From Bacteriovoracaceae bacterium (GTDB lineage Bacteria; Bdellovibrionota; Bacteriovoracia; Bacteriovoracales; Bacteriovoracaceae), in assembly GCA_947446575.1 (NCBI GenBank), contig CANFHC010000009.1, positions 62,001 to 126,000 on the forward strand: DNA of 64,000 bases. Reading direction: 5' to 3'. Positions within the stretch are counted from its first letter, which is position 1. Every line of letters begins with the position of its first letter. The position numbers and the translations under genes were made by a program. The notes beneath the pieces were generated by a model. That model searched no databases. It had not been told where the DNA came from and saw only the letters and a program-made list of their open reading frames with translations. Below are positions 31,838 to 62,478 of this stretch, piece after piece.

Positions 31838-33706
31838 ATGAATGAATTTGAAAAAGAAGTTAAGTTAGATTTTTTGGCCGAGGCGATTCAGCTATTAGAT
31901 GATGCTGAGCAAGCATTTTTAGCGCTTGAGAGCGATAAAAATAATAGCAATTTAATGAATGAAATCTTCAGGCTTGCACATAATTTGAAAGGGACTTCTA
32001 GGGCCGTTGGATTTGGAGATGTAGCCGAGTTCACACATGAGATGGAAAATCTCATTTTAAAAGTTAAAGAAGGGCATATTCAAATTACTGATGAGATAGT
32101 TTCACTTTTATTAGAATGTAATGATCATGTGAGTGTCATGATTAAAACGTTAAACATGGATCTTGATTCTCGTTGCAGCTCTACAGATATCATTGCAAAA
32201 ATTCACCTCGCTTTATCTGGAGATTTAAAATCAGCAACTGTAGTAGAAGTTCCCAAGGCAGACCAATTTGTCGAAGAACACTCTTTTGATGCAGAAGGAA
32301 TTTCTGCTGAGGACATGGAGATACTAGAAAATTTCCAGCGTGATTTAGATGCTCCCAAAGAGCCTATGAGTGCAGAACAAAAAGAAGAAAGAGCGCAATC
32401 ATTTTTTCCAACTGAAGCTCCTAAAGTTAATTTACAAGTAATACCTGCGGCAACTCCTACTCCTGAAATTCATCCTGAAACAAAAAAGGCACCAGTCAAT
32501 AAGGGCGCTTCAGAAGATGATAGTATTCGCGTAAGTTTAGCCAGAGTTGAAATGCTTAACAACGTCGTTGGAGAGTTGGTTATTATTCAAACGGTTTTAA
32601 ATCAGCACAGAGATGAAGTGCATAATCCGTTAATGCTGAAATCCCTTTCTCATTTAGCAAAACTCTCTAAAGAAATTCAAAATATTTCAATGAGCTTACG
32701 AATGGTTCCATTGAAACAGACATTACAAAAAATGCAAAGGATTGTGCGTGATACTTCAAAAGCTTTGGATAAAAAAGTTCATTTAGAGCTTATTGGTGAA
32801 GAAACAGAAATTGATAAAACAGTTCTTGAACATCTCGCTGATCCACTTGTTCATATTGTAAGAAATGCTGTGGACCATGGACTTGAGTCAACTGCAGAAC
32901 GAATTTTGGCAGGTAAAGGCGAAGAGGGAATTGTTTCCATTAAAGCGTTTCATGAAGGAAATAACCTCGTTATCGAAATCCGCGATGATGGAAAAGGAAT
33001 CAACCCTAAAATTATTCGCGAAAAAGCTATTGAGAAAAAAGTTATCTCGGCCAATGCCAATATGAGTGATGATGATCTCGTCAATTTGATTTTCCATCCA
33101 GGATTTTCAACTAAAGCAGAAGTTTCAGAAATTTCTGGTCGCGGGGTGGGAATGGATGTTGTTAAAACAAATATTGAAAAGCTCTCTGGTGAAGTAAAAG
33201 TTGTGACTGAGCTAGGAAAAGGATCTGTCTTTAAAGTTGTTCTTCCTCTGACATTAGCGATTATCGAAGCGATGGTAACTAAAGTGGGTGATGAACGCTA
33301 TATTATTCCTTTGGGGCAAGTTTACGAATCATTATCACCAACGGCCGATCTGGTTCATCATGTTAATGGTATAGGTGATTGTTTAAAAATTCGCGGTGAA
33401 GTTATCCCAATGTTCAAAGTGAGTACTGCTCTTCAGCGCCCGATGAAAGATAAACCAATTCATGAGCAGATTGCCATCATCGTTAATTCAGATGATCGCA
33501 ATTTTGCTGTTTTAGTTGATGATATTTTACATCAGCAACAAGTCGTTATTAAAAAACTAGGTGAAGAAATTAAAAATCAAAAAGGATTCATGGGAAGTTC
33601 TATCTTAGGTGATGGTCGTCCAGCATTTATTTTAGATTTATTAGAATTGTTTTCGGGATCGATGAAAAAGAAAAAATCAAATTTTACAGAAGAATTGGCA
33701 GCATAG
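31838..33706 (+). CDS. cheA: chemotaxis histidine kinase CheA
   Basis: 622 residues. The Hpt domain has phospho-acceptor His48 in RLAHNLKGTSRAVGF. A linker (about 120-225) shows no clear CheY-binding P2 domain. The dimerisation helices start with SIRVSLARVEMLNNVVGELV. The kinase domain has N-box HIVRNAVDHGLES, G1 DDGKGINPK and G2 GRGVGMDVVKTNIEKLSGE. A C-terminal CheW-like regulatory domain (YIIPLGQVYESL, IRGEVIPMFKV) ends the protein. An AGGA site precedes the ATG. First gene of locus 1, followed by cheW after 10 bp. The kinase would serve both chemotaxis loci, since locus 2 has no CheA. Confidence 0.95.
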   Translation: MNEFEKEVKLDFLAEAIQLLDDAEQAFLALESDKNNSNLMNEIFRLAHNLKGTSRAVGFGDVAEFTHEMENLILKVKEGHIQITDEIVSLLLECNDHVSVMIKTLNMDLDSRCSSTDIIAKIHLALSGDLKSATVVEVPKADQFVEEHSFDAEGISAEDMEILENFQRDLDAPKEPMSAEQKEERAQSFFPTEAPKVNLQVIPAATPTPEIHPETKKAPVNKGASEDDSIRVSLARVEMLNNVVGELVIIQTVLNQHRDEVHNPLMLKSLSHLAKLSKEIQNISMSLRMVPLKQTLQKMQRIVRDTSKALDKKVHLELIGEETEIDKTVLEHLADPLVHIVRNAVDHGLESTAERILAGKGEEGIVSIKAFHEGNNLVIEIRDDGKGINPKIIREKAIEKKVISANANMSDDDLVNLIFHPGFSTKAEVSEISGRGVGMDVVKTNIEKLSGEVKVVTELGKGSVFKVVLPLTLAIIEAMVTKVGDERYIIPLGQVYESLSPTADLVHHVNGIGDCLKIRGEVIPMFKVSTALQRPMKDKPIHEQIAIIVNSDDRNFAVLVDDILHQQQVVIKKLGEEIKNQKGFMGSSILGDGRPAFILDLLELFSGSMKKKKSNFTEELAA

Positions 33707-33716
33707 GAGTATCACA

Positions 33717-34214
33717 ATGGAAAAAGACAACGTCACGAAAATGAAAAGAACAAATGCAGAGCTAAGTCGTTTTATCGAATTTAGTCTGGGGCGTGAAGAT
33801 TACGCAATTCCTTTATTGATGGTTAGAGAAGTTATCTCTGTTCCGGATACAACACCAATTCCAAAGTCTCCAGGACACTTTTTAGGAATTATGAATTTAC
33901 GCGGACAAGTTATCTCTGTTGTAGATTTAAGAAAAAAATTAAAAGTTGAAGCAAAACAAGATAAAGAAGAGGCTGTTATCATCGTTGATATCGGCGGAAT
34001 GAATATTGGTGTCGTTGTTGATTCAATCAACAAAGTTCTAGCTTTTTCATCTGATGAAGTCAGTGAAATGCCAGAAGTTGAAAACCAAGTAAATACCCAT
34101 TTTATTTTTGGTGTTTATAAAAAAGAGAATTCACTTACTGTGCTTTTAGATATCGCAAAGGTTTTAGACCTAAAAGATTTAGAAGCAATAACGGGCTCAA
34201 AAAAAGCAGCTTAA
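33717..34214 (+). CDS. cheW: chemotaxis coupling protein CheW
   Basis: 165 residues, one CheW domain. Links receptors to CheA in the membrane or cytosolic array. It shows EFSLGREDYAIPLLMVREVI, the family core GIMNLRGQVISVVDLRKKL, and GVVVDSINKVLAF. An AGGAG site lies just before the ATG. It sits between cheA and the CheR fusion gene, all on one strand with short gaps. It is of ordinary length, in contrast with the three-domain CheW protein at 61 kb. Confidence 0.93.
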   Translation: MEKDNVTKMKRTNAELSRFIEFSLGREDYAIPLLMVREVISVPDTTPIPKSPGHFLGIMNLRGQVISVVDLRKKLKVEAKQDKEEAVIIVDIGGMNIGVVVDSINKVLAFSSDEVSEMPEVENQVNTHFIFGVYKKENSLTVLLDIAKVLDLKDLEAITGSKKAA

Positions 34215-34251
34215 TTTTTTAAAAAGCGTTTGAATTTTATAGAGGTTTCGG

Positions 34252-36123
34252 ATGTCTCAAGCTCAGGTTGGTATTGTCAGTAAAGATTTTGTGTCGGTCA
34301 TTGATAAAGTATCAACTATCGTTCACAAAATTTCAGGTAACCGTTTAGGTGAAAAACAAGCCTATATGGTTGAGACAAGAGTTAAAAAACGCATGATTGA
34401 GTTAGGGATGAGAGATGCCTCAGAGTACTTGCAATACATTGATCAAAACTATGAGAAAGAGTCTGGCGTTTTAGTAGGACTGATTACAACCCATCATACA
34501 TTTTTCTTTAGAGAGTTTCCGCATTTTGAAATTTTAAAAAAAATATTGCCAGAACTATGTGCAATGACAAAAAAACGTGGAGAAAAATGTATAAAAGTTT
34601 GGTCAGCAGCTTGTAGTAGAGGGCAAGAAGTTTATTCTCTTGCAATGTTTTTAGATTACCATCTACCACAAATAGATCCCTCAATGACTTATAAAATTTT
34701 AGGGACAGATATTGATAGCGACTCTGTAAAGGTTGCTACTAATGGAGTCTATCATCAAAATGAGATCAAAGAAGTTCCCATGAATTACTTGGGAAATAAT
34801 TGGGCAAAAGGTACTGGCGATATTGCGATGTATGTAAAAGTAAAAAATGTTATCAAAGACAAATGCGAATTTCGCCCTGGAAATTTGCTCAAAATTTCAG
34901 ATGCCGTGAAGATAGAAAAGTTTGATGTTATTTTTTGCCGTAACGTTTTTATTTATTTTGAATCTCATCAAGTTGAGCAAATAACGAAAGACTTGATGAA
35001 CCACCTTTATCCTACAGGGGTATTTTTTTCGGGAATTTCAGAACCATTATCAGGATTAAAATTGGATGTGGTTTCAATTGGGCCGTCAGCCTATATGCAT
35101 AAGTCAATTCAATCAGCACCAGTAAAAAATTCTGGCGTAATATCGACTTCGATTTCAAGGCCACAGATGGTGCCAGCTCCAATGTCTTTGGCTCCAGAAA
35201 TATATAGAGTTATGTGTGTCGATGACTCCCCAAGTATTTTAACATTATTGAAAAAAGTTTTATGTATTGAGCAAGGGTTTGAAATTGTCGCTACGGCCAT
35301 AAATGGTAAAGACGCGATGGAAAAATTGAAAACGATAAAAGTTGATTTGGTCACTTTAGATATTCACATGCCTGAAATGGATGGTGTGACTTATCTCGAA
35401 AAAAACTTCAGCAAATTCCATCCACCAGTCGTTATTATTTCTTCTGCCTCTAGAGCAGATTCAGATGTTGCAATGAAGGTATTAAAATTAGGTGCCTCTG
35501 ATTATATTGAAAAGCCGGCCTTAAATAATTTAGAAGAGCGCGGTGAAGAAATTAGAACTAAATTGCGTTCAGTTGCTCAAGACTCGCACCGTAAACCAGT
35601 TATTTCAACGTTCGATCAAGATCATCAAAAACAATTTGTCATTTCTAATCCTGAAAAGAAAATTCGGTTAATGTTGGCGTCAATTTCTGATCTGCCGATG
35701 ATTAAAGCATTTGCTAAATCACTAGATTATTCACAACCTGGATCTGTTATTTTTTTTGAAGGGATGGGAGAAATTTTAGAAGCTGTGGTTAAAGAGCATA
35801 CAACGGATTTTAAGCAAAAAATAAAATACGTGAATTCACAAGATATAAAAATTGAACCTAATACTTTTTATTTTGCTGATTTTAAGACATGTTTCCCTGA
35901 TATGCATAAGAAATATTCGAGCTTTCCTTGTTCACTTTTAGCTTATGGAAGTATTTCTGCTCATTCAGCTAAAACAGTATCTGAGTGGAAAAACATTCAA
36001 ATTTTACTTGAAGATTTAGGAGAAAAATCAAATAAAACACATCCTCTGATGGCCTATTCAACTGACGTAGTACCGGCGACAAGTTTTCCTTATATGTCTT
36101 GTCGTTACTTGAGTACCAAGTAG
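34252..36123 (+). CDS. CheR methyltransferase - receiver - degenerate CheB-like fusion
   Basis: 623 residues. Residues about 10-285 are CheR-type: RLGEKQAYMVETRVKKRM, SAM-binding VWSAACSRGQEVYSLAM, and FDVIFCRNVFIYFE. The usual N-E-T of the receptor-binding/active segment is replaced by H-H-T (TTHHTFFFRE). Residues about 318-440 are a CheB-type receiver with acidic pair Asp324/Asp325 and phospho-site Asp370 (TLDIHMPEMDGV). Residues about 468-623 follow the length and hydrophobic pattern of the CheB methylesterase domain (IRLMLASISDLPMI, IKYVNSQDIKIEPNTFYFAD) but lack S-T-G-G, the catalytic His and the MGxDG Asp. The last domain is probably catalytically dead. A GAGG site precedes the start. 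The next gene is the active CheB. Confidence 0.8.
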   Translation: MSQAQVGIVSKDFVSVIDKVSTIVHKISGNRLGEKQAYMVETRVKKRMIELGMRDASEYLQYIDQNYEKESGVLVGLITTHHTFFFREFPHFEILKKILPELCAMTKKRGEKCIKVWSAACSRGQEVYSLAMFLDYHLPQIDPSMTYKILGTDIDSDSVKVATNGVYHQNEIKEVPMNYLGNNWAKGTGDIAMYVKVKNVIKDKCEFRPGNLLKISDAVKIEKFDVIFCRNVFIYFESHQVEQITKDLMNHLYPTGVFFSGISEPLSGLKLDVVSIGPSAYMHKSIQSAPVKNSGVISTSISRPQMVPAPMSLAPEIYRVMCVDDSPSILTLLKKVLCIEQGFEIVATAINGKDAMEKLKTIKVDLVTLDIHMPEMDGVTYLEKNFSKFHPPVVIISSASRADSDVAMKVLKLGASDYIEKPALNNLEERGEEIRTKLRSVAQDSHRKPVISTFDQDHQKQFVISNPEKKIRLMLASISDLPMIKAFAKSLDYSQPGSVIFFEGMGEILEAVVKEHTTDFKQKIKYVNSQDIKIEPNTFYFADFKTCFPDMHKKYSSFPCSLLAYGSISAHSAKTVSEWKNIQILLEDLGEKSNKTHPLMAYSTDVVPATSFPYMSCRYLSTK

Positions 36124-36133
36124 GTAGAAGAAT

Positions 36134-37567
36134 ATGCAAAAGATAAAATCAAAAGAACTAATGTCAAAAAAAAATGGTGGTGAATTTTTGATCGAACTTG
36201 ATCATGGAGACAGTTTTGTTTCATTTCATACGAAATCAGATGATTGTTTTGGATTCTATTTAAAAAAAGGTGATTTGCAAAAATCGATAATTGAATCTTT
36301 AATTTCGAAAATTGAAAGTGAGATCTCAAACGTTGAGCTAGTCAAATCTGAAGTCAAAATAATCACAAATAGCATCAGCATAAAAATATTTGAAGAAGTT
36401 TTCACTGCAAAACGATTTTCTAATATTAAAAAAGTAGAAAAAGAAGGCACAGTAGAAGTTATGTTCTTACCAGTGTTAAATAAAGTCAGAGTTAGCAAAG
36501 AGCCAATCGTTGAAGTGGTAAATTTTAAATTTAAAGTTTTAATTGTTGATGACTCTAAAACTATTAGAAATATTTTATCCCGCATTTTTTCCAGTGATCC
36601 TGGATTTGAAGTCTGTGCAATGGCTGAAAAACCTTCCGACGTTGAGGCTTTAATTTTAAAACACAAGCCAGATGTTATTACCATGGATATCCACATGCCA
36701 GAAATGGATGGTGTGGCCCTTTTGAAAATTATAGCTCCCAAATTTAATATTCCAACCGTAATGATCTCGTCTATAAGTATGGCCGAAGGACCGATGGTTC
36801 TTGAAGCCTTAGAGCACGGTGCGATCGATTATATTCAAAAGCCAGAACTTTCGGAAATTGAAAGTGTGACTCCGCTTATTTTAGAAAAAGTTCGAACCGC
36901 GGCAAAGGCCAATTTGAAAAAGTCAGTGCGCAATAGAAATGCAAAAACGGTTCAGACAAAATTTACGTGCGATTTAAATTCACTGATTGTACTAGGATCT
37001 TCCACGGGAGGGACCGAGGCTATAAGAGAAATTATCACGGCCCTGCCCAATCAAATTCCTCCGATGTTAATTGTCCAGCATATCCCAGCAGTCTTTTCAG
37101 CAGCATTCGCTAAAAGAATGAATGACCTTTGCTCCTTTGAAGTTAAAGAAGCTGCTCATGGTGATGAAGTGCGTGCTAATCGTATTCTGATTGCTCCTGG
37201 AGGGCAGCAGATGAAGTTCGTTTATAAAAATGGAAAAGGGTTTGTAGAAATCAATGACGATGCTCCGGTCAATAGATTTAAGCCTTCAGTTGATTATATG
37301 TTTATGTCAGTTGCTAAAAATTTGTATACACATACGATCGCCATTATTTTAACGGGAATGGGAAAGGATGGAGCACGTGGAATGCAGGAACTTAGATCTC
37401 TTGGAGTTCGCACCATTGCTCAAGATGAACAGTCCTCAGTTGTATTCGGTATGCCCAAAGAGGCGATTGCGTTGGGAGCAGCGGAATTTGTAGAATCTCT
37501 ATCTGAAATTGCAGAGAGAACGACTCTTTTAACCCTAGAGCGATCTCAGATTAAAAAAATTAGTTAA
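36134..37567 (+). CDS. cheB: CheB methylesterase with extra N-terminal CheD-like domain
   Basis: 477 residues, about 130 longer than usual. Residues about 133-250 are the receiver (Asp139/Asp140, phospho-site Asp185, Lys236). Residues about 282-470 are the methylesterase with triad Ser290 (GSSTGG), His316 (VQHIP) and Asp412 (TGMGKDGARG), so it should deamidate/demethylate receptors. Residues 1-125 are extra. Their order of strands, the spacing of GEF-LIELDHGDSFVSF and the closing VEVMFLPVLNKVRVSK recall CheD, but the CheD catalytic Cys and His are absent. That match is inference. The stop overlaps that of the convergent deacetylase gene by four bases. An N-terminal start without strong ribosome site lies 10 bp after the previous stop. 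Confidence 0.88.
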   Translation: MQKIKSKELMSKKNGGEFLIELDHGDSFVSFHTKSDDCFGFYLKKGDLQKSIIESLISKIESEISNVELVKSEVKIITNSISIKIFEEVFTAKRFSNIKKVEKEGTVEVMFLPVLNKVRVSKEPIVEVVNFKFKVLIVDDSKTIRNILSRIFSSDPGFEVCAMAEKPSDVEALILKHKPDVITMDIHMPEMDGVALLKIIAPKFNIPTVMISSISMAEGPMVLEALEHGAIDYIQKPELSEIESVTPLILEKVRTAAKANLKKSVRNRNAKTVQTKFTCDLNSLIVLGSSTGGTEAIREIITALPNQIPPMLIVQHIPAVFSAAFAKRMNDLCSFEVKEAAHGDEVRANRILIAPGGQQMKFVYKNGKGFVEINDDAPVNRFKPSVDYMFMSVAKNLYTHTIAIILTGMGKDGARGMQELRSLGVRTIAQDEQSSVVFGMPKEAIALGAAEFVESLSEIAERTTLLTLERSQIKKIS

Positions 37568-43866: not shown

Positions 43867-45792
43867 ATGGAAGTTAAAGATTATTCTCAAAAATTGGATC
43901 AGGCACGCGATAAGTATCGTCAGGCGCAGGAAGACTTGCGTTCAACTTATGATAAAAATGCTGAAAGTACCAAAACTACTTTTGATAATAAAGCGGATAA
44001 ACTTTCAAAAAATTATGACAATCAAAAGACCAAACTAGAAGAACAAAATCTTGTTAATAATCAAATGTATTCTGATAAAACCAAAGAGGTGATTGCTGAT
44101 CGTCAGGAACGCTTCCGCAATGATATCAAAAAGAATACAGAAAAATTTGATTTAGACCGCAACGAAATGAAGTCAGATTTTAATGATAAGCTCACAAACT
44201 TAAGTGATTCATATAATAAAAGTACTCAAGAAAATAATCGTTTTCATGATCAGGCCATGAAGACTATGAGTGATAGATACGGTAAATCTAATACAAATTA
44301 TAAAAATGGTTTTGATAAACAAATTGAATCAATGGATTCAAAATCTAAACAGACCTTCTTAGATCAAAAGAATGAAACGCACCAATCTCAGTTAATTCAA
44401 GACAAAAACAACCAAGAAAATCTGGAAAATTTAAGAGCCAGCAATCAAGAGCAAAAATTTAAGGAAGTTTCAAGGTTAAGAAACGATAACCAAAATTTGC
44501 GGACTAGTTTTACTCAGGAAAGAGATGCTATGCATGATGAGCAGCAGGCTCGAATTGATGATATTTTAAAATCTAAAAATAAAGAGAGTGAAGAAGGGCA
44601 AAAGAATTTTGCTGATCTTCAACAAAATATTCGCGTAAAAAACTTGAACGACGAAGAAAAAGTTAAACAGGCCCATATGGGTGAGTCTAAGGCCCTCGAA
44701 AAGAAATTTAATGAAGATCTTCGCAATATGCAACACATGGCCAACCAGAAAATTAAGGGTGGAAACGAAGTTTCTGCATTAAAGGATGAAAATAAACAAT
44801 TAATTTCTTCTTATGAAAATAGACTGCAAGGTGCTCGTGACGAGGCTAAAAAAGATAGCGAAATCAGCACGGAAAAAGAAGAAAAAATCGACGATAATTA
44901 TCGCGAAAAGTTAAAAACTTTAAAACTCAGCAACGTTGAAGAGTTAGATAAAAAAGACTCGGATATGTCTGCTCAAAGCAATAGAAAATTACAAGAATTT
45001 AAAGATAAAAATAGTACAATCGTTGATCGATATAAAAACGATGCAACAAAAACTAAAATTGAAAATGAAGAAAAATTAACTAAGGCAGATGGAAAATCCA
45101 AAACTCAATTAAAAGATCAAAGAGTTGAGTTTGGCAAATATATCAACAATGTTAATGATAAAAAAATGGAAGAAATATCATCCATCAAAAATGAGTTTTC
45201 AAAAGATAAAACTAATTTTATCGAAAAAACCAGAAGAGATTTTAGTGATGAAAAGAATCAGTTAAAGGACGTATTTAATCAAAAACTAACTGTCAAAGAT
45301 GATATGTATGAAAAAAAATTATCTGAAATGGAAAAACAAACTAATAAAATTATAGAAAATTATGAAACTCGCATGAACCAACTAGCTCGTAAGTCAGAAA
45401 AAGAAGTTGAAGTCATGAAAAATACTGAAGACACTAGAAGAATAAAGGAAAACCAAGCGATCGCTATAGCTTTTGATAACCAAGAACATGACCACCAATT
45501 AGAGATAGGCAATATCAGAAGTAAGTATGAAAATATCATTGGTAAAGACCGCTCTTTAAATGAGCAACAAACAAATCGTATTGTTCAAAAATATGAAGAT
45601 CAACTAGAGCGCGAGCGAAGTGATCATCTAAAAGATCTATCAATAAAGCTAGGTGAATCTCAGGCTCAGTTTGAAAGACTATTTAAGTCCAGCGAACTAG
45701 AGAAGGAAACCTTACGAAATCAATACGAGCAGCGCATGGAAAACATGAAATCAGCTGCAATGGCCCAACAAGGTAATACAAAAAAAGTATAG
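43867..45792 (+). CDS. large cytoplasmic coiled-coil protein
   Basis: 641 residues with no Pro, Cys or Trp and very high Lys, Glu, Asp, Asn and Gln, predicted almost entirely alpha-helical coiled coil. There is no signal peptide or membrane segment. Phrases recur with variation (YDKNAEST, YDNQKTK, YNKSTQEN, YKNGFDKQ), suggesting growth by internal duplication of roughly helical blocks, although exact repeat length was not determined. Such proteins form filaments or scaffolds; Bdellovibrio has the cytoplasmic coiled-coil protein Ccp, but homology cannot be judged here. The gene has its own leader and lies alone between the DsbA-like gene and pyruvate kinase. Confidence 0.75.
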   Translation: MEVKDYSQKLDQARDKYRQAQEDLRSTYDKNAESTKTTFDNKADKLSKNYDNQKTKLEEQNLVNNQMYSDKTKEVIADRQERFRNDIKKNTEKFDLDRNEMKSDFNDKLTNLSDSYNKSTQENNRFHDQAMKTMSDRYGKSNTNYKNGFDKQIESMDSKSKQTFLDQKNETHQSQLIQDKNNQENLENLRASNQEQKFKEVSRLRNDNQNLRTSFTQERDAMHDEQQARIDDILKSKNKESEEGQKNFADLQQNIRVKNLNDEEKVKQAHMGESKALEKKFNEDLRNMQHMANQKIKGGNEVSALKDENKQLISSYENRLQGARDEAKKDSEISTEKEEKIDDNYREKLKTLKLSNVEELDKKDSDMSAQSNRKLQEFKDKNSTIVDRYKNDATKTKIENEEKLTKADGKSKTQLKDQRVEFGKYINNVNDKKMEEISSIKNEFSKDKTNFIEKTRRDFSDEKNQLKDVFNQKLTVKDDMYEKKLSEMEKQTNKIIENYETRMNQLARKSEKEVEVMKNTEDTRRIKENQAIAIAFDNQEHDHQLEIGNIRSKYENIIGKDRSLNEQQTNRIVQKYEDQLERERSDHLKDLSIKLGESQAQFERLFKSSELEKETLRNQYEQRMENMKSAAMAQQGNTKKV

Positions 45793-45847: not shown

Positions 45848-47530
45848 ATGAGACGAGCTAAAATTGTGGCCACAATCGGGCCTTCATCATCATCAAAAGA
45901 AATGTTAACTAAGTTAATCGAGAACGGCGTAAATGTCTGCAGAATTAATATGAGTCACGGGACTTACGAAGCCCATCAAGCGGTCATTAAAAATATTCGC
46001 GAAGCAAGTAGAGAGTCTGGTTATGAAGTTGCAATCTTGGCTGATTTACAAGGTCCAAAAATTAGAGTTGATAAACTTCTTGTGCCACTCATTTTAGAAA
46101 GTGGATCAGAGTGGGTAATCGGTTCTAGTAAACTACAAGATAATTACCCAGAGTACAAAGAAAAATATATTCCAACAATTTATGAAAATCTTGTAGCCGA
46201 TTGCCATGATGGTGCTCGTATTCTTTTTGATGATGGATTAATTATTGCTGAAGCAATAGCAAAAGATCGGGATGTTTATAAAATCAAAGTTACTATTGGT
46301 GGAACGCTTAAATCAAATAAAGGAATTAATCTTCCAGACTGCGATGTCTCTGCACCAGCTTTTACGGAAAAAGACAGAGAAGATTTAATGTTTGCCTTAA
46401 AAGAAGGTGCCGATTATGTGGCGCTTTCATTTGTAAGAAAAAAAGAAGACATCCTCACAGTTAAACAACTACTGCATTCACTCAAGGTAAATATTCCCAT
46501 TATTTCTAAAATTGAAAAGCCTCAAGCAGTAGATAATATCGATGAAATTCTTGCTGTAACGGATATGATTATGGTGGCCCGTGGGGACATGGGAGTTGAA
46601 GTTGGAAATCATTTAGTGCCAGCGATTCAAAAAAAATTAATTAATAAGTGTAATGCACTAGGAATTCCCGTTATTACAGCTACTCAAATGCTAGAGAGCA
46701 TGACGGATAATCCAACACCAACTCGAGCTGAAGCTTCGGACGTTGCAAATGCTATTTGGGATGGAACAGACGCCGTTATGCTTTCAGGAGAAACAGCTTC
46801 GGGAAAATATCCCATAGAAACTATTAGCATGATGGACAAAATTGTTCGTGAAGCTGAAAAAACTCCAAAAGAACGACCATTTTTGCGCAATCAAGATTTG
46901 TCTTCAGTTACAGCTTCAATCATGGTGGCAGCATCAATGATATCAGAAAAAATTGGAGCAAAAAGAATTGTTTCAGTTACAGAATCAGGATCATCTTGTT
47001 TGCGTATTACTCAGTTTCGTCCAAGTGTTCCTGTGCTTGGAATTACCAACTCACTTAAGGTTGCAAGACGAATGTGTTTATATTGGGGAGTCAGTCCATT
47101 TATCGTGACTGAGCAAAAAGAAGAAAATCCTGAATTTATGAAAAATGTTCTTAAGGAAGTTAAAGAAAGATTGTTTTTAAAGAATGGCGATAAACTTGTT
47201 CTAACTCGTGGTGATGGGAAATTTTTTTCACAGGGAAGTTCTAACTCAATTAAAGTAGAAGTTATTCGAGATAAGCCTAAAGTTCAAGGTGGATCACAAG
47301 GGCTAGAAGAGGCGAGTGATGATACAAAAAAGATTTTACTTGATACGAATGTTTGCGCTTCATGCCAGGCTTGTGTACAAGTTTGTCCCCACGATATCTG
47401 GGCCGTCACAAAAGATGAAAAGAAAAATACATATATCGCAGCTGCTCATATTTCAAAATGTACAATGGATATGGCCTGTGTAGAGAGTTGCCCCATGGGT
47501 GCAATAGAAATAATTCCGACAACATTTTAA
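45848..47530 (+). CDS. pyk: pyruvate kinase fused to a C-terminal ferredoxin domain
   Basis: 560 residues. Residues 1-475 are a complete pyruvate kinase: KIVATIGPSS, INMSHG, LADLQGPKIR, ISKIEKPQA, the signature MVARGDMGVEV, TQMLESM and a C-domain with a normal VTESGSS. It makes pyruvate and ATP from PEP and ADP. After a short linker, residues about 500-560 are a bacterial-type 2[4Fe-4S] ferredoxin: Cys503, 506, 509 and 513 (CASCQACVQVCP), then Cys538, Asp541, Cys544 and Cys548 (CTMDMACVESCP), with Asp in place of the second Cys. The fusion is within one uninterrupted frame. An AGGAAA site precedes the ATG. queG, an iron-sulfur enzyme, follows one base after the stop. Confidence 0.93.
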   Translation: MRRAKIVATIGPSSSSKEMLTKLIENGVNVCRINMSHGTYEAHQAVIKNIREASRESGYEVAILADLQGPKIRVDKLLVPLILESGSEWVIGSSKLQDNYPEYKEKYIPTIYENLVADCHDGARILFDDGLIIAEAIAKDRDVYKIKVTIGGTLKSNKGINLPDCDVSAPAFTEKDREDLMFALKEGADYVALSFVRKKEDILTVKQLLHSLKVNIPIISKIEKPQAVDNIDEILAVTDMIMVARGDMGVEVGNHLVPAIQKKLINKCNALGIPVITATQMLESMTDNPTPTRAEASDVANAIWDGTDAVMLSGETASGKYPIETISMMDKIVREAEKTPKERPFLRNQDLSSVTASIMVAASMISEKIGAKRIVSVTESGSSCLRITQFRPSVPVLGITNSLKVARRMCLYWGVSPFIVTEQKEENPEFMKNVLKEVKERLFLKNGDKLVLTRGDGKFFSQGSSNSIKVEVIRDKPKVQGGSQGLEEASDDTKKILLDTNVCASCQACVQVCPHDIWAVTKDEKKNTYIAAAHISKCTMDMACVESCPMGAIEIIPTTF

Positions 47531-57385: not shown

Positions 57386-59608
57386 ATGGAAGCCATCAAG
57401 ATAATTAATAATCAAATGAGCGAAATGGAATCCAACCCTTTTTATTCAGCGCTAAGCCGATCGCAAATTCTTTTGGAAGTAAATGCGGATGGAACATTAG
57501 TGATGGGTAATGAAAATTTTTTTAAAGTTATGGGCTATACGCTAGAAGAAATTGTGGGGAAAAAGATTAGTCATTTTTTTGATGAAAAATTTATTGATAG
57601 CGATGAATTCAAAGATATTTGGAGCAACTTTTCTAAAGGCGAATTTACGACAGGTGAATATAAGTTGCTAAATAAAGCTGGCCGAGATGTTTGGTTGAAT
57701 GCCTCTTTTAATCCAATTCAAACTGAAGGATCTAAGCTATCAAAGATGATTGTTTGTGCATCGGACGTAACGATAATCAAAGCAGAGTTGCTCGTTCGCA
57801 CAGCTATAATGGATGTTACGAGCATTGTTTCAGAGTCAGATTTAAAAGGTAATATTTTAAGTATCAATCAAAAATTTCTCGATGTTTCGCAATATAGTCG
57901 TGATGAGTTAATAGGACAGCCTCATAATACTACTCGTCACCCGGATATGGCCAAAGAGGTTTTTAAAGAGCTATGGGGAACGATTGGAAAAGGAAACATT
58001 TTTAGAGGTGTTGTAAAAAATAGAAAAAAAGATGGAACTCCCTATTATGTTGATGCTGTTATTGCTCCTTTAATGGGAGCTAATGGAAAGCCAAGAAAGT
58101 ATCTTGGGGTTCGTTACGATATCACTGAAGCAGAGGTTGAACGACAAAATTCTCGTGGAATTATTGGGGCGATAGATACTTCATTTGCATTTATTGAGTT
58201 TGATATTTCTGGAAATGTGATTAATGCCAATGAAAATTTTTTAATCACGATGGGATATAAAAAAGAAGAGATAGCTGGTAAGCATCACCGTATATTTTGC
58301 GAAGCTACCTTAACGCATTCACCGGAATATACTCAATTTTGGATTGATCTAAAAGAAGGTAAAAGCCAAAATAATATTTTCAAAAGAATTAATAAAGAAG
58401 GAAAAGAAGTCTTTCTGCAAGCTGTTTATGCACCAGTCTTTGATGAAATGCATCGAGTAACTAAGATTATAAAAATAGCGACAAATATTACTGGTGAAAA
58501 GATGAAGCAAGACGCCATCAGTAAGTCGCAAGCAGTTATTGAGTTTAATTTAGAAGGGATCATATTAAATGCCAACGATAATTTTTTAAAAACTGTTGGC
58601 TACAGTCTCGATGAAATCAAAGGAAAACATCACCGAATGTTCTGTGATGATTCTTATACTGCCAGTCCAGCTTATAAAGAATTTTGGAATAAGTTAGGTA
58701 GAGGAGAAGCAGAAAATGGTCGATTCAAACGAGTTGGGAAGGGTGGTAAAATTATTTGGTTACAAGCAACTTATAATCCTAGTTTTGACCAATTCGGTAA
58801 ACCTTGTGGAGTGACTAAATTTGGTGGTGATATCTCAATTCAAGTAGAAGTTGAAGAAACAGTTATGAGACTTTCTAATGAGTTCTCTACAAGCACAAAA
58901 GAAATTTCTGAAAAAGCGATCGGTGTTGCTAGAGGAGCTCAATCTCTGGGGGCAACTACTGAAGAAATGAATGCTTCTATTGAAGAATTAACAGCTTCAA
59001 TCAACTCTATTGCTCAAAACTCTAAAAATACAGATGTTGTCGCTAAGGCAACTCATCACGAAGCTGAGGCCGGTTCAAAGGCAATCACTAAAGCGATAGA
59101 AGCGATGGAATTAATCAGTAAATCTTCTGAAGATATAAGTGAAATTGTAAAAGTTATTAGTGAAATTGCAAGTCAAACAAACCTGCTTGCTTTTAATGCT
59201 GCTATCGAAGCGGCCAGAGCTGGGGAACATGGGTTAGGCTTTTCAGTTGTTGCGGATGAAGTAAGAAAACTTGCTGAGCGGTCTTCTCAAGCGACAAAAG
59301 AAATTTCAAAATTAATAAATGAATCTGTTAAGAGAGTTGCTCAGGGAAGTGAAATTTCTAAACAAGCTGGGGAAGCATTTGAAAAAATCGTTACAGGTGT
59401 AATTAAAACGACACAGGCAATTGCAGAAGTTTCGTGTGCAGCAGATGAGCAATTAGTTGCCGCAAAAGAAATTAGTTCTGCCATTCAACAGGTTGCTGAG
59501 GAAACTGAGAAATCTGCTTCAGCATCGGAATCAATTGCAAATGGTACTAAGGATTTAACCAAAGGGGCTGAAGAATTGAAACTTACTGTGGCAAAATTTA
59601 AAGCTTAA
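57386..59608 (+). CDS. soluble methyl-accepting chemotaxis receptor with four PAS domains
   Basis: 740 residues with no transmembrane segment or HAMP domain. Four PAS domains follow in order (about 24-130, 145-255, 262-372, 378-490). The second has an Aer-like [16 protein letters not shown]; the third and fourth share GKHHR(I/M)F and are probably recent duplicates. The signalling domain (about 500-740) has the hairpin tip [23 protein letters not shown] domains could bind haem or flavin and sense redox state or oxygen; no cofactor can be assigned. A GGGAG site precedes the ATG. It is followed by cheR and cheD. Confidence 0.93.
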
Positions 59609-59623
59609 AAATCCGAGGAAAAA

Positions 59624-60466
59624 ATGAATCTTGTCGAGCTCGTAGAATTAGAAGGACCTTCATTAGAAAAAATACTTTCATTAGTTCATAAACTAACGGG
59701 TATCTCTATGGGGGCAAATAAAAAGACCCTTATTCAAGGACGTTTACGACCTAGAATAAGAAAGCTTGGATTAGATAGTTATGACAAATATCTTGATTTT
59801 TTAAATTCTAATAAGGAAGAAGTTCAAGAGTTTATAAATCTTATAACTACTAATGAAACTTCATTTTTTAGAACTCAAAGAGTTTGGGATTTTTTTAATA
59901 ATCAATTTCTTCCAGAATGGTTTGCTGAAAACCCTAAGAAAACACTTAAAATTTGGTCTGGAGCATCCTCAACAGGTGAAGAAGTTTATACGATAGGTAT
60001 CTGTTGTGAAGAATTTAGATTAAAAAATCCAAGTTTTAATTATCAAATCTATGGATCTGATATTTCGTCTGAAGTGGTTGCAATTGCAAACAAGGCAGAA
60101 TATTCGGGTCGATCAATCGAAGTATTCAAAACGACACTTCGACCATTATTCGATAAATATATGCAATCAAGCAACGAAGTTTTTAAAGTGAGTATGGAAA
60201 TTAAATCTAGAATTCGCTTTGGTTTGCACAATCTCTTTTTTTTACCTAAAGAAAGAAATTATTACGACATCGTTTTCCTAAGAAATGTTTTAATTTATTT
60301 TGAACCAGAAGATATCGAAAAAGTTTTGGCAAATATAAGCGTGGGATTAATCGCTAATGGCATCCTTGTTATTGGAGAATCAGAATCTCTTTCTAGTCTA
60401 AAGACATCATTTAAATATAAAGTTCCACTAGTCTATGAAAAAATTGAGAGTAATCTTGGGAAATGA
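59624..60466 (+). CDS. cheR: chemotaxis methyltransferase CheR
   Basis: 280 residues. Methylates receptor glutamates with SAM. The N-terminal helical domain holds RLRPRIRKLGLDSYDKYLDF, the canonical TTNETSFFR is intact, SAM binding is IWSGASSTGEEVYTIGI, and FLRNVLIYFEPEDI follows. It is a plain, full CheR, unlike the fusion in locus 1, which has H-H-T in place of N-E-T. It sits 15 bp after the receptor gene and overlaps cheD by 32 bp. Confidence 0.94.
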   Translation: MNLVELVELEGPSLEKILSLVHKLTGISMGANKKTLIQGRLRPRIRKLGLDSYDKYLDFLNSNKEEVQEFINLITTNETSFFRTQRVWDFFNNQFLPEWFAENPKKTLKIWSGASSTGEEVYTIGICCEEFRLKNPSFNYQIYGSDISSEVVAIANKAEYSGRSIEVFKTTLRPLFDKYMQSSNEVFKVSMEIKSRIRFGLHNLFFLPKERNYYDIVFLRNVLIYFEPEDIEKVLANISVGLIANGILVIGESESLSSLKTSFKYKVPLVYEKIESNLGK

Positions 60467-60932
60467 GAACGATATTCATGTCAAAATTGGTGAAGTTAAA
60501 GTAGGTCATCATGGCGATATTTTAAAAGCGACTCTAGGCTCTTGTGTCGGAATTGCCTTTATCTGGAGACGCAAAGGAATATTTGGACTAGCTCATTGCC
60601 TGCTTCCAGATGCGCATGAAACGAATTTTATTATTAGCGCTAAATACGTTAGCCAAGCTGTTCCTTCTTTAATGGTTTTACTAAAAATAAAAACTGATGA
60701 CATTAAAGATATTGAAGTTTTTTACGCAGGCGGCGGGAATATGATGTCTCAACTTTCAAGAAGAAATGTAGATCATGTTGGATTGTTGAATATTGCAGCT
60801 GCAAAGAAATATTTAACCGAGCAAGGTTTTAAATTTAAAGAATTGGATGTCGGTGGAGAAGTGGGGAGACAAATTATTGTCGACTGTACCTCCGGAGATG
60901 TAACTGTAAATAGATTTGAAAAGACCATGTAA
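60435..60932 (+). CDS. cheD: chemotaxis glutamine deamidase CheD
   Basis: 165 residues. Deamidates receptor glutamines and can bind CheC. Catalytic Cys37 in TLGSCVG and His54 in FGLAHCLLP are present, with YAGGGNMM and GGEVGRQIIVD further on. The ATG at 60435 lies inside cheR and has no clear ribosome site, so translation probably depends on coupling; a TTG at codon 8 is an alternative. It gives a reference within this window for the inactive CheD-like segment proposed at the N-terminus of cheB. Confidence 0.92.
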   Translation: MKKLRVILGNENDIHVKIGEVKVGHHGDILKATLGSCVGIAFIWRRKGIFGLAHCLLPDAHETNFIISAKYVSQAVPSLMVLLKIKTDDIKDIEVFYAGGGNMMSQLSRRNVDHVGLLNIAAAKKYLTEQGFKFKELDVGGEVGRQIIVDCTSGDVTVNRFEKTM

Positions 60933-60960
60933 TGAGTAATTGATTTTTTAAGGAATTGGT

Positions 60961-62478
60961 ATGGAAAATCTTGAAGTAGATAAAATAAAATTAATAAAAA
61001 AAGACGAAATTTTTGGTTCATTTTATATTGGCGAGATGGAAGTTGCAATTAATGTTAGAGCAATACATGAAGTTGTTAATCTTCCAGAAAAAATAATTAA
61101 AATGCCTCTTGCCCCAGAATATCTTTTAGGGGTGTTTAATTTACGAGGTCTCATCATTCCCATAATTAATCTAAAACTTCTGCTAAAACTTGAGGATTTT
61201 GCAATTTCAGCAAATCAAAAAATTGCAATAATTGACCATGAAGGAGCAAAAGTCGGACTTATATTCGACTCTACAAGTGAAATTATTAGAGCGAATCAAG
61301 AAGTTTTAAATGAATTTAAATATCCTGGGGAAAATGGACATAATATAATTTCGGGGGCAATTAAATTAGACTCAGGGAATAGAATATTGCAGATAATAGA
61401 TCCATTTGCATTATTATCTATCGAAAATATCCCGCAAATTATTGCTCAACAAAGTAAAAATAATAAAAATGGTAAATTTTCATTACATCAATTAGGTAAT
61501 CGAAAAAAATGTATCTCATTTTCAATCAATGATATTTTAATGGGCTTTGAAATTTCAGGCATTCACGAAATAATAAAAGTTCCAGAAATTCATCAGTCTC
61601 CAATTCAAAATGATCTTTGCCTAGGTGTGGTTAACTTAAGAGGACAAACTGTTCCCGTAATAGACTTATCTCTTTTGTTGGGAGCATCTCGATCGCAAGA
61701 TATTACCGGAGAGGAAAAACGAATCATTGTTTTAAAAATTGAAAAAGAATTGTTTGGGCTTCTCGTTGAATCAGTTGAGAGTATAAACACTTATGACGTA
61801 GATGATGTCATGGCAATTCCTTTGTTAAGTAAAACTCGCTCTCAAATGTTTCTTGGCTGCATTTCTATTGAAGGGATGGGAGATATTATTTTATTAGATT
61901 ACAATGAAGTTCTTTCAAATAATGAGATCGGAGAAATTACTCAAGGCCACAGTAAATTCTATAACAGCAATTCTCAATTAGAATCACAACTATCTAAAAA
62001 TAAATTAAATCGTCAAGCTTATATCTCATTTAAATTGGAACATTTATTTGGTGTTTCGATTAAAGATATTTGTGAAATTATCAATTATTCAGATGAAATT
62101 GTATCTGCTCCTGGTATGCCTTCTTTTGTAAAAGGAGTTTTAAACCTCCGTGGAAAATTGCTTACAGTTATCGATACTAGACAGCTCTATGCAATGGGAG
62201 ATTCCAAACCAATCGATGATAAAACAAAAATTTTAATTTTCAATAGTGGAGAAGAGCGTTTTGGACTAATCGTTGATTCGGTAGAAAGCATTATTACAGT
62301 CGATGAAGATAAAAAAATGAAAGTTCCCAGCTTAATGGTACAAAGAGTTCAAGATAAATTTGCCAATGATATTAAGGAAATTATCACGTTCAAGCAGGCA
62401 GAGGAAAAAGATGGAGTCTTAGTTATATTAAATATGGAGCCTGTAACTTCGAGAATAAAAAATTCTATAGCGGCTTAA
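60961..62478 (+). CDS. three tandem CheW domains in one protein
   Basis: 505 residues made of three CheW domains: about 15-155, 181-317 and 351-500. Each has the core NLRG turn (residues 60, 225 and 395) and a following hydrophobic strand (IIPIINLKLLL, TVPVIDLSLLL, LLTVIDTRQLY). There is no kinase or receiver domain. A single CheW joins receptor to CheA, so a triple unit could bridge several array partners. GGAATTG lies at the ribosome-site position. Last gene of locus 2; 144 bp follow before the next gene. Confidence 0.88.
   Translation: MENLEVDKIKLIKKDEIFGSFYIGEMEVAINVRAIHEVVNLPEKIIKMPLAPEYLLGVFNLRGLIIPIINLKLLLKLEDFAISANQKIAIIDHEGAKVGLIFDSTSEIIRANQEVLNEFKYPGENGHNIISGAIKLDSGNRILQIIDPFALLSIENIPQIIAQQSKNNKNGKFSLHQLGNRKKCISFSINDILMGFEISGIHEIIKVPEIHQSPIQNDLCLGVVNLRGQTVPVIDLSLLLGASRSQDITGEEKRIIVLKIEKELFGLLVESVESINTYDVDDVMAIPLLSKTRSQMFLGCISIEGMGDIILLDYNEVLSNNEIGEITQGHSKFYNSNSQLESQLSKNKLNRQAYISFKLEHLFGVSIKDICEIINYSDEIVSAPGMPSFVKGVLNLRGKLLTVIDTRQLYAMGDSKPIDDKTKILIFNSGEERFGLIVDSVESIITVDEDKKMKVPSLMVQRVQDKFANDIKEIITFKQAEEKDGVLVILNMEPVTSRIKNSIAA

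Follow-up and report, generated by a model that had tools for sequence, protein, structure and literature searches.

In the enteric model of chemotactic adaptation, the methyltransferase CheR works without feedback from the kinase CheA, and only the methylesterase CheB is phosphorylated. CheB-CheR hybrids (CheBR) place a CheB-like part and a CheR in one chain, as the protein described here does, and two such ORFs were among those we fetched. In FrzF, the TPR part limits its methylation (PMC3447774).

The locus studied here lies in a window (the whole 64,000-nucleotide stretch analysed) whose genome has its nearest GTDB relatives in Bacteriovorax and Bacteriovoracaceae. These belong to Bdellovibrionota, a mostly predatory bacterial lineage. 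An operon at 31838-37567 on the forward strand encodes, in this order, a CheA histidine kinase (31838-33706, with Hpt, H-kinase_dim, HATPase and CheW domains by Pfam), a CheW (33717-34214, by Pfam), a 623-residue protein with an ATG start (34252-36123) and a 477-residue partner (36134-37567) that starts 10 bases downstream of it. This order is kept in most relatives. From their ORFs and Pfam matches, together with the analysis below, we call the last two proteins CheR-REC-X and psiCheD-REC-CheB, where X is a pseudo-CheB (psiCheB) domain and psiCheD a pseudo-CheD domain. Elsewhere in the window, a second chemosensory cluster (57386-62478) combines a PAS-rich receptor and a plain CheR with a CheD that looks intact and a protein containing three CheW-like stretches. 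Two further products stand out from their translations: a pyruvate-kinase-like protein whose C-terminal part has two Cys clusters like those of a 2[4Fe-4S] ferredoxin (45848-47530), and a highly charged, repetitive, probably coiled-coil protein of 641 residues (43867-45792).

Identity and catalytic state of domain X

The first two-thirds of CheR-REC-X are readily recognised. The methyltransferase module (34303-35106) exceeds the Pfam cut-offs as CheR_N (residues 18-66, E 8e-8) and CheR (residues 82-270, E 2e-44), and alignment of its SAM site finds the equivalents of T94, R98, D154 and N212 kept, with N92 replaced by His and GEE reading GQE. Throughout the CheR-REC-X rows, the Asn of TTNxT is changed to His and the first Glu of GEE to Gln or His (34486-34515 in the window). 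The receiver, REC1 (35203-35571), matches PF00072 at residues 320-425 (E 3e-22) and is of CheB type: the NCBIfam CheB model covers residues 318-457, that is, the receiver and its linker, with E 2e-30. An earlier note on this DNA had called this receiver phosphorylatable, which accords with its residues, as the phosphorylation set DD, D, S and K is intact; it is complete in 42 of 44 aligned rows, and the remaining two have Thr for Ser.

Past about residue 440, Pfam finds no significant match in CheR-REC-X, and no NCBIfam model matches X or the N-terminal 128 residues of the partner CheB. X (35605-36120; residues 452-623 in the stretch that was folded) is about 155 residues long, is ordered from about residue 462 and is always C-terminal to CheR-REC, with 54-75% identity among close relatives and about 10-35% across the phylum. 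Direct searches are nearly blind to it. The Pfam CheB methylesterase family PF01339 scores below its curated cut-off for the window protein and is detected in just 3 of 41 X members (best E 0.0029), beside equally weak chance families, and the X profile, run against PDB sequences, lists CheB 1CHD only at E 1, amid chance matches. An HMM of X, rebuilt without the receiver tail, still finds beyond its own family significant matches to CheB catalytic domains (best E 4e-6), always on the first half of CheB, and CheB domains of other phyla are matched as well. That X is a mere tail of the receiver was dismissed on this result.

More sensitive comparisons point the same way. In the full profile-profile comparison by hhalign, X matches CheB with a probability of 91-92% over 149 columns, versus at most 1.4% for five control families (CheD, REC, CheR, CheW and BN, the last being the psiCheD domain). 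The AlphaFold model of X, from 41 sequences, has a pLDDT of 91.0 and a pTM of 0.87. The first seven PDB entries that Foldseek returns for it are all CheB with a probability of 1.00, and VIA-align superposes it on four CheB crystal structures with Z scores of 16.4, 16.0, 15.5 and 14.8 over 147-154 residues, versus 9.1 for the best unrelated chain. The earlier note had seen the last ~155 residues follow the neighbouring CheB in length and hydrophobic pattern, a resemblance that hhalign bears out (149 columns, 91.9%), and the superposition on CheB that it proposed gives Z 14.8-16.4. It had also named an unrelated fold at the C terminus as the outcome that would sink its proposal; hhalign, Foldseek and the Z scores all favour CheB. 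We also considered membership of the CheD family, as the sequence LLEDLG looks like a CheD motif, yet hhalign gives X against CheD only 1.4%. Profile comparison and the predicted structure together indicate that X is almost certainly a degenerate homologue of the CheB methylesterase domain.

Aligned to CheB, X lacks STGG, the catalytic His and the Asp of MGxDG. At the His position X has Glu, Asp or other residues, and at the Asp position His, Lys and Asp are found among others. In our fetched set of more than 100 CheB domains, nearly every one retains Ser, His and Asp. X also lacks the ~30-residue hairpin on the substrate side of CheB that contains PVNRxxPSVD. The losses listed by the earlier note thus stand, none of the three features being conserved in X, and the picture is refined by the missing hairpin and by a Ser that sits at the nucleophile position in the window protein. 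Global hhalign fitted the C-terminal half of X badly, so residue positions were taken from a local alignment. In the lineage of the window, hhalign places S477 at the nucleophile, Glu503 at the His and His571 at the Asp position of CheB. These three residues occur together in 23 of 41 X rows, confined to the side of the family that includes the window, which raises the idea that X lives on as a repurposed hydrolase, with Ser477, Glu503 and His571 as a triad in which His and acid are swapped. We consider this highly improbable: the substrate-side hairpin is absent, two close relatives carry Ala or Thr in place of the nucleophile-position Ser, and other lineages have lost the set but keep P-x-T-S-F. 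Because of this variation of the Ser and the loss of the set elsewhere, any catalysis by X is unlikely.

All X lineages share two features: a pair of acidic residues (E587/D588) and, at the C terminus, the motif P-x-T-S-F. Of the 41 rows, 38 to 41 retain each position of this motif. In the window P-x-T-S-F is part of DVVPATSF (36064-36087), the best-conserved part of X in the alignments, and it persists even in strongly reduced forms of the domain, as PSTSW (L205) and PLTSI (L206). On sequence grounds we class X as a CheB homologue and pseudoenzyme, not as a methylesterase, because the fold and homology of CheB are present but the catalytic Ser-His-Asp, STGG and MGxDG are missing.

The partner protein and the distribution of both dead domains

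The N-terminal domain of the partner (psiCheD, 36134-36508), which the earlier note had not mentioned, was also modelled with high confidence (pLDDT 94.3). Its best PDB match by Z is CheD (2F9Z chain C), with Z 10.8 for 123 residues; NTAN1, whose fold is related, reaches Z ~9 and tops the Foldseek list by E-value. hhalign gives 73% for CheD and less than 1% for controls. The catalytic Cys and His of CheD are found in 0 of 35 psiCheD rows, versus 54 of 56 and 56 of 56 rows of true CheD. Sequence and model together identify the domain as a predicted CheD fold (PF03975) without the catalytic Cys and His, a dead deamidase domain. It is followed by a receiver, REC2 (36530-36853, by Pfam and residues), and an active-type CheB methylesterase domain (36968-37543, by Pfam and alignment) that keeps Ser, His, Asp and Met. 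Relatives also encode intact CheD-REC-CheB proteins (L130, L131, L138, L147, L148). The CheD part of one of these ends in YFYTESGRLRV, to which YFYSDSGRLRV corresponds in a dead version (L014).

With a threshold of E 0.001, a scan of 369 genomes from the phylum detected X in 116, or about 100 once matches on real CheB were removed by hand, and psiCheD was found in 77 of the 369. All 77 genomes with psiCheD also have X, a co-occurrence confounded by common descent, and the two genes are separated by 3-33 bases in the genomes checked. Another 25 X-positive genomes gave no psiCheD match, perhaps through divergence. Outside the phylum, the search for X covered 596 genomes from two groups and returned just a few short stretches, all on CheB domains. 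Since more than 70 sampled species keep both dead domains together, both probably have a role in control or docking. Judged by sequence, X is no pseudogene, because it is found in about 100 of 369 genomes, is under purifying selection and has a near-invariant C-terminal P-x-T-S-F.

The ORFs fetched comprise 58 CheR-REC-X, 53 psiCheD-REC-CheB, 9 CheD-REC-CheB, 3 CheR-REC-CheB single chains (L025, L026, L150) and 2 CheR-REC-REC-CheB (L021, L022). The genomes of L025 and L026 carry an X elsewhere too. In L021 and L022 the two genes are fused, both dead domains are absent and every active domain is kept; a single deletion may have removed both. Three other single-chain fusions keep both dead domains (L144, and L145 and L205 with a divergent N-terminal domain), so fusion alone does not make the dead domains dispensable. 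A different set of CheD-REC-CheB-like proteins has a dead CheB with Asn in place of Ser, Ser or Ala in place of His, and Phe in place of Met (L140, 2859-4430; L141, 2865-4439; L142, 2770-4344; L149, 233-1804; L152, 2897-4486). An active-type REC-CheB directly follows the dead-CheB gene in L149 and L152. This dead CheB apparently has a separate, independent origin.

One could regard X and the dead CheD domain as functionless relics that are still decaying. Both evolve faster than their neighbours: within the genus, mean identity is 64% for X and 45% for psiCheD versus 79-86% for neighbouring domains, X evolves at about twice the rate of those domains, and L021 and L022 do without both. We nevertheless find relics very unlikely, given reading frames that stay open across the phylum, a C-terminal motif that survives even in the strongly reduced L205 and L206, and a median dN/dS within the genus of ~0.11 for X (0.22 for psiCheD; 0.05-0.06 for CheR, the receivers and CheB), these values being rough because synonymous sites are close to saturation.

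Origin and possible role of the paired modules

In a receiver tree of 108 rows on only 112 columns, in which several deep forks are open, REC1 forms one clade (99/99) placed with canonical CheB receivers, and REC2 is placed with the receivers of CheD-REC-CheB. The two receivers of CheR-REC-REC-CheB split, one falling in each clade. REC1 and REC2 would then have separate origins, the first in a canonical REC-CheB and the second in a CheD-REC-CheB. From trees and synteny, the simplest reading is that an ancestral CheR joined a canonical REC-CheB, with CheD-REC-CheB encoded by the adjoining second gene, and that one activity subsequently disappeared from each protein, with catalysis lost from CheB in the first and from CheD in the second. 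The pair would be left with one methyltransferase, one methylesterase and no deamidase. Phylogeny thus joins profile-profile comparison and structure prediction in upholding the architecture first proposed for the protein, a CheR followed by a receiver and a catalytically dead CheB-like domain.

How X works is much less certain than what it is. Our preferred reading, to which we give a probability of roughly 45%, is that X is a non-catalytic, REC-linked docking or regulatory module within a CheR/CheB adaptation module. CheA would phosphorylate REC1 and REC2, the REC-X half of the methyltransferase would respond in the manner of REC-CheB, and it would contact psiCheD-REC-CheB across proteins, receptors, or both, so that methylation would be coupled to demethylation in one adaptation module. 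We favour such a role because dead domains sit on both partner enzymes, co-occur, and can vanish together in one-chain active modules. A more specific form, in which the dead methylesterase on CheR and the dead deamidase on CheB pair as regulatory domains and assemble a phosphorylation-switched CheR/CheB complex that sets methylation and demethylation together, is somewhat unlikely. Mirror-tree comparisons (36 genomes, saturated distances) gave no signal between X and psiCheD (partial r 0.07, p 0.13), and direct contact between these two domains is unsupported by this test; exploratory signals between X and REC2 (0.43) and between CheR and psiCheD (0.49) would fit cross-protein contacts.

The main rival, which follows the earlier note's idea that CheA tunes methylation directly, needs no partner: REC1, when unphosphorylated, would pack on the dead domain as the receiver of CheB does on its catalytic domain, and CheA-dependent phosphorylation would rearrange REC-X and alter CheR activity in cis. 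REC1 suits this role, with its nearly always complete phosphorylation residues and its CheB-type ancestry, and single chains of CheR-REC-CheB exist. Gating in cis leaves unexplained, however, both the co-occurrence of X with a dead CheD and their joint absence from CheR-REC-REC-CheB, where REC1 stays. The co-variation of REC1 and X that might accompany it was not seen (partial r 0.11, p 0.14), and we regard this rival as unlikely.

Many chemoreceptors of this family carry at their C terminus, after a linker, conserved acidic residues in a tail such as PSxDDxRFEDV, unlike the NWETF pentapeptide (L161, L163, L186, L187, L189-L191, L193, L198-L200, L203). Variants of this tail, a candidate docking tail by its sequence, also occur without X. 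The earlier note had supposed that the dead domain perhaps docks on receptors, and X might chiefly do so, tethering CheR, perhaps through C-terminal tails of the form D-D-x-R-F-E-D-V. A tail motif is present on many receptors of the family, and the receptor pentapeptide of E. coli binds CheR and CheB (PMC7698151). The pentapeptide site of E. coli CheB, however, is formed by the REC extension and linker and lies outside the catalytic domain (PMC7698151), and similar tails are found in G370/L232, which has no X, and in G072/L193, whose X is strongly reduced. Receptor docking as the chief role of X is therefore distinctly unlikely in our judgement. The dead CheD domain on the partner CheB, and its co-occurrence with X, suggest a CheR/CheB partnership at least as much as receptor docking.

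Comparison with known adaptation systems

No description of a pseudo-CheB, a pseudo-CheD or the CheR-REC-X arrangement was found in the open-access papers searched, which is weak evidence of novelty. Pfam and NCBIfam annotation is blind to both X and psiCheD. Judged from its proteins, a whole lineage has a CheR equipped with a phosphorylatable receiver of CheB type and with a pseudo-CheB, and a CheB equipped with a pseudo-CheD. The two adjacent multidomain proteins also show clearly how activities can be lost in a matching way. If functional, the two domains would bring chemotactic adaptation under pseudoenzyme control, and would make it testable whether kinase feedback can reach methylation and whether CheR works together with CheB in a single complex.

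The closest relative of the REC-X half is the CheB methylesterase itself (1A2O, 1CHD, 6YMZ, 3SFT), with the same receiver followed by the CheB fold and with a receiver and linker that fit the NCBIfam CheB model. Unlike CheB, X is without the catalytic motifs and the NRxxPSVD hairpin and is attached to the C terminus of CheR. psiCheD likewise shares the fold of the CheD deamidase (2F9Z chain C) and differs by the absence of Cys and His in 35 of 35 rows. In the CheBR hybrids fetched (L001, L067), the CheB part is N-terminal and retains Ser, His and Asp, whereas in CheR-REC-X the CheB-like part is C-terminal and has lost these motifs; CheR-REC-X falls outside the definition of CheBR, as it has no active CheB domain joined to CheR. 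CheR-TPR fusions of the FrzF type resemble it in having a C-terminal, non-catalytic extension on CheR (PMC3447774), but their extension consists of TPR repeats, and that of CheR-REC-X of a receiver and a pseudo-CheB.
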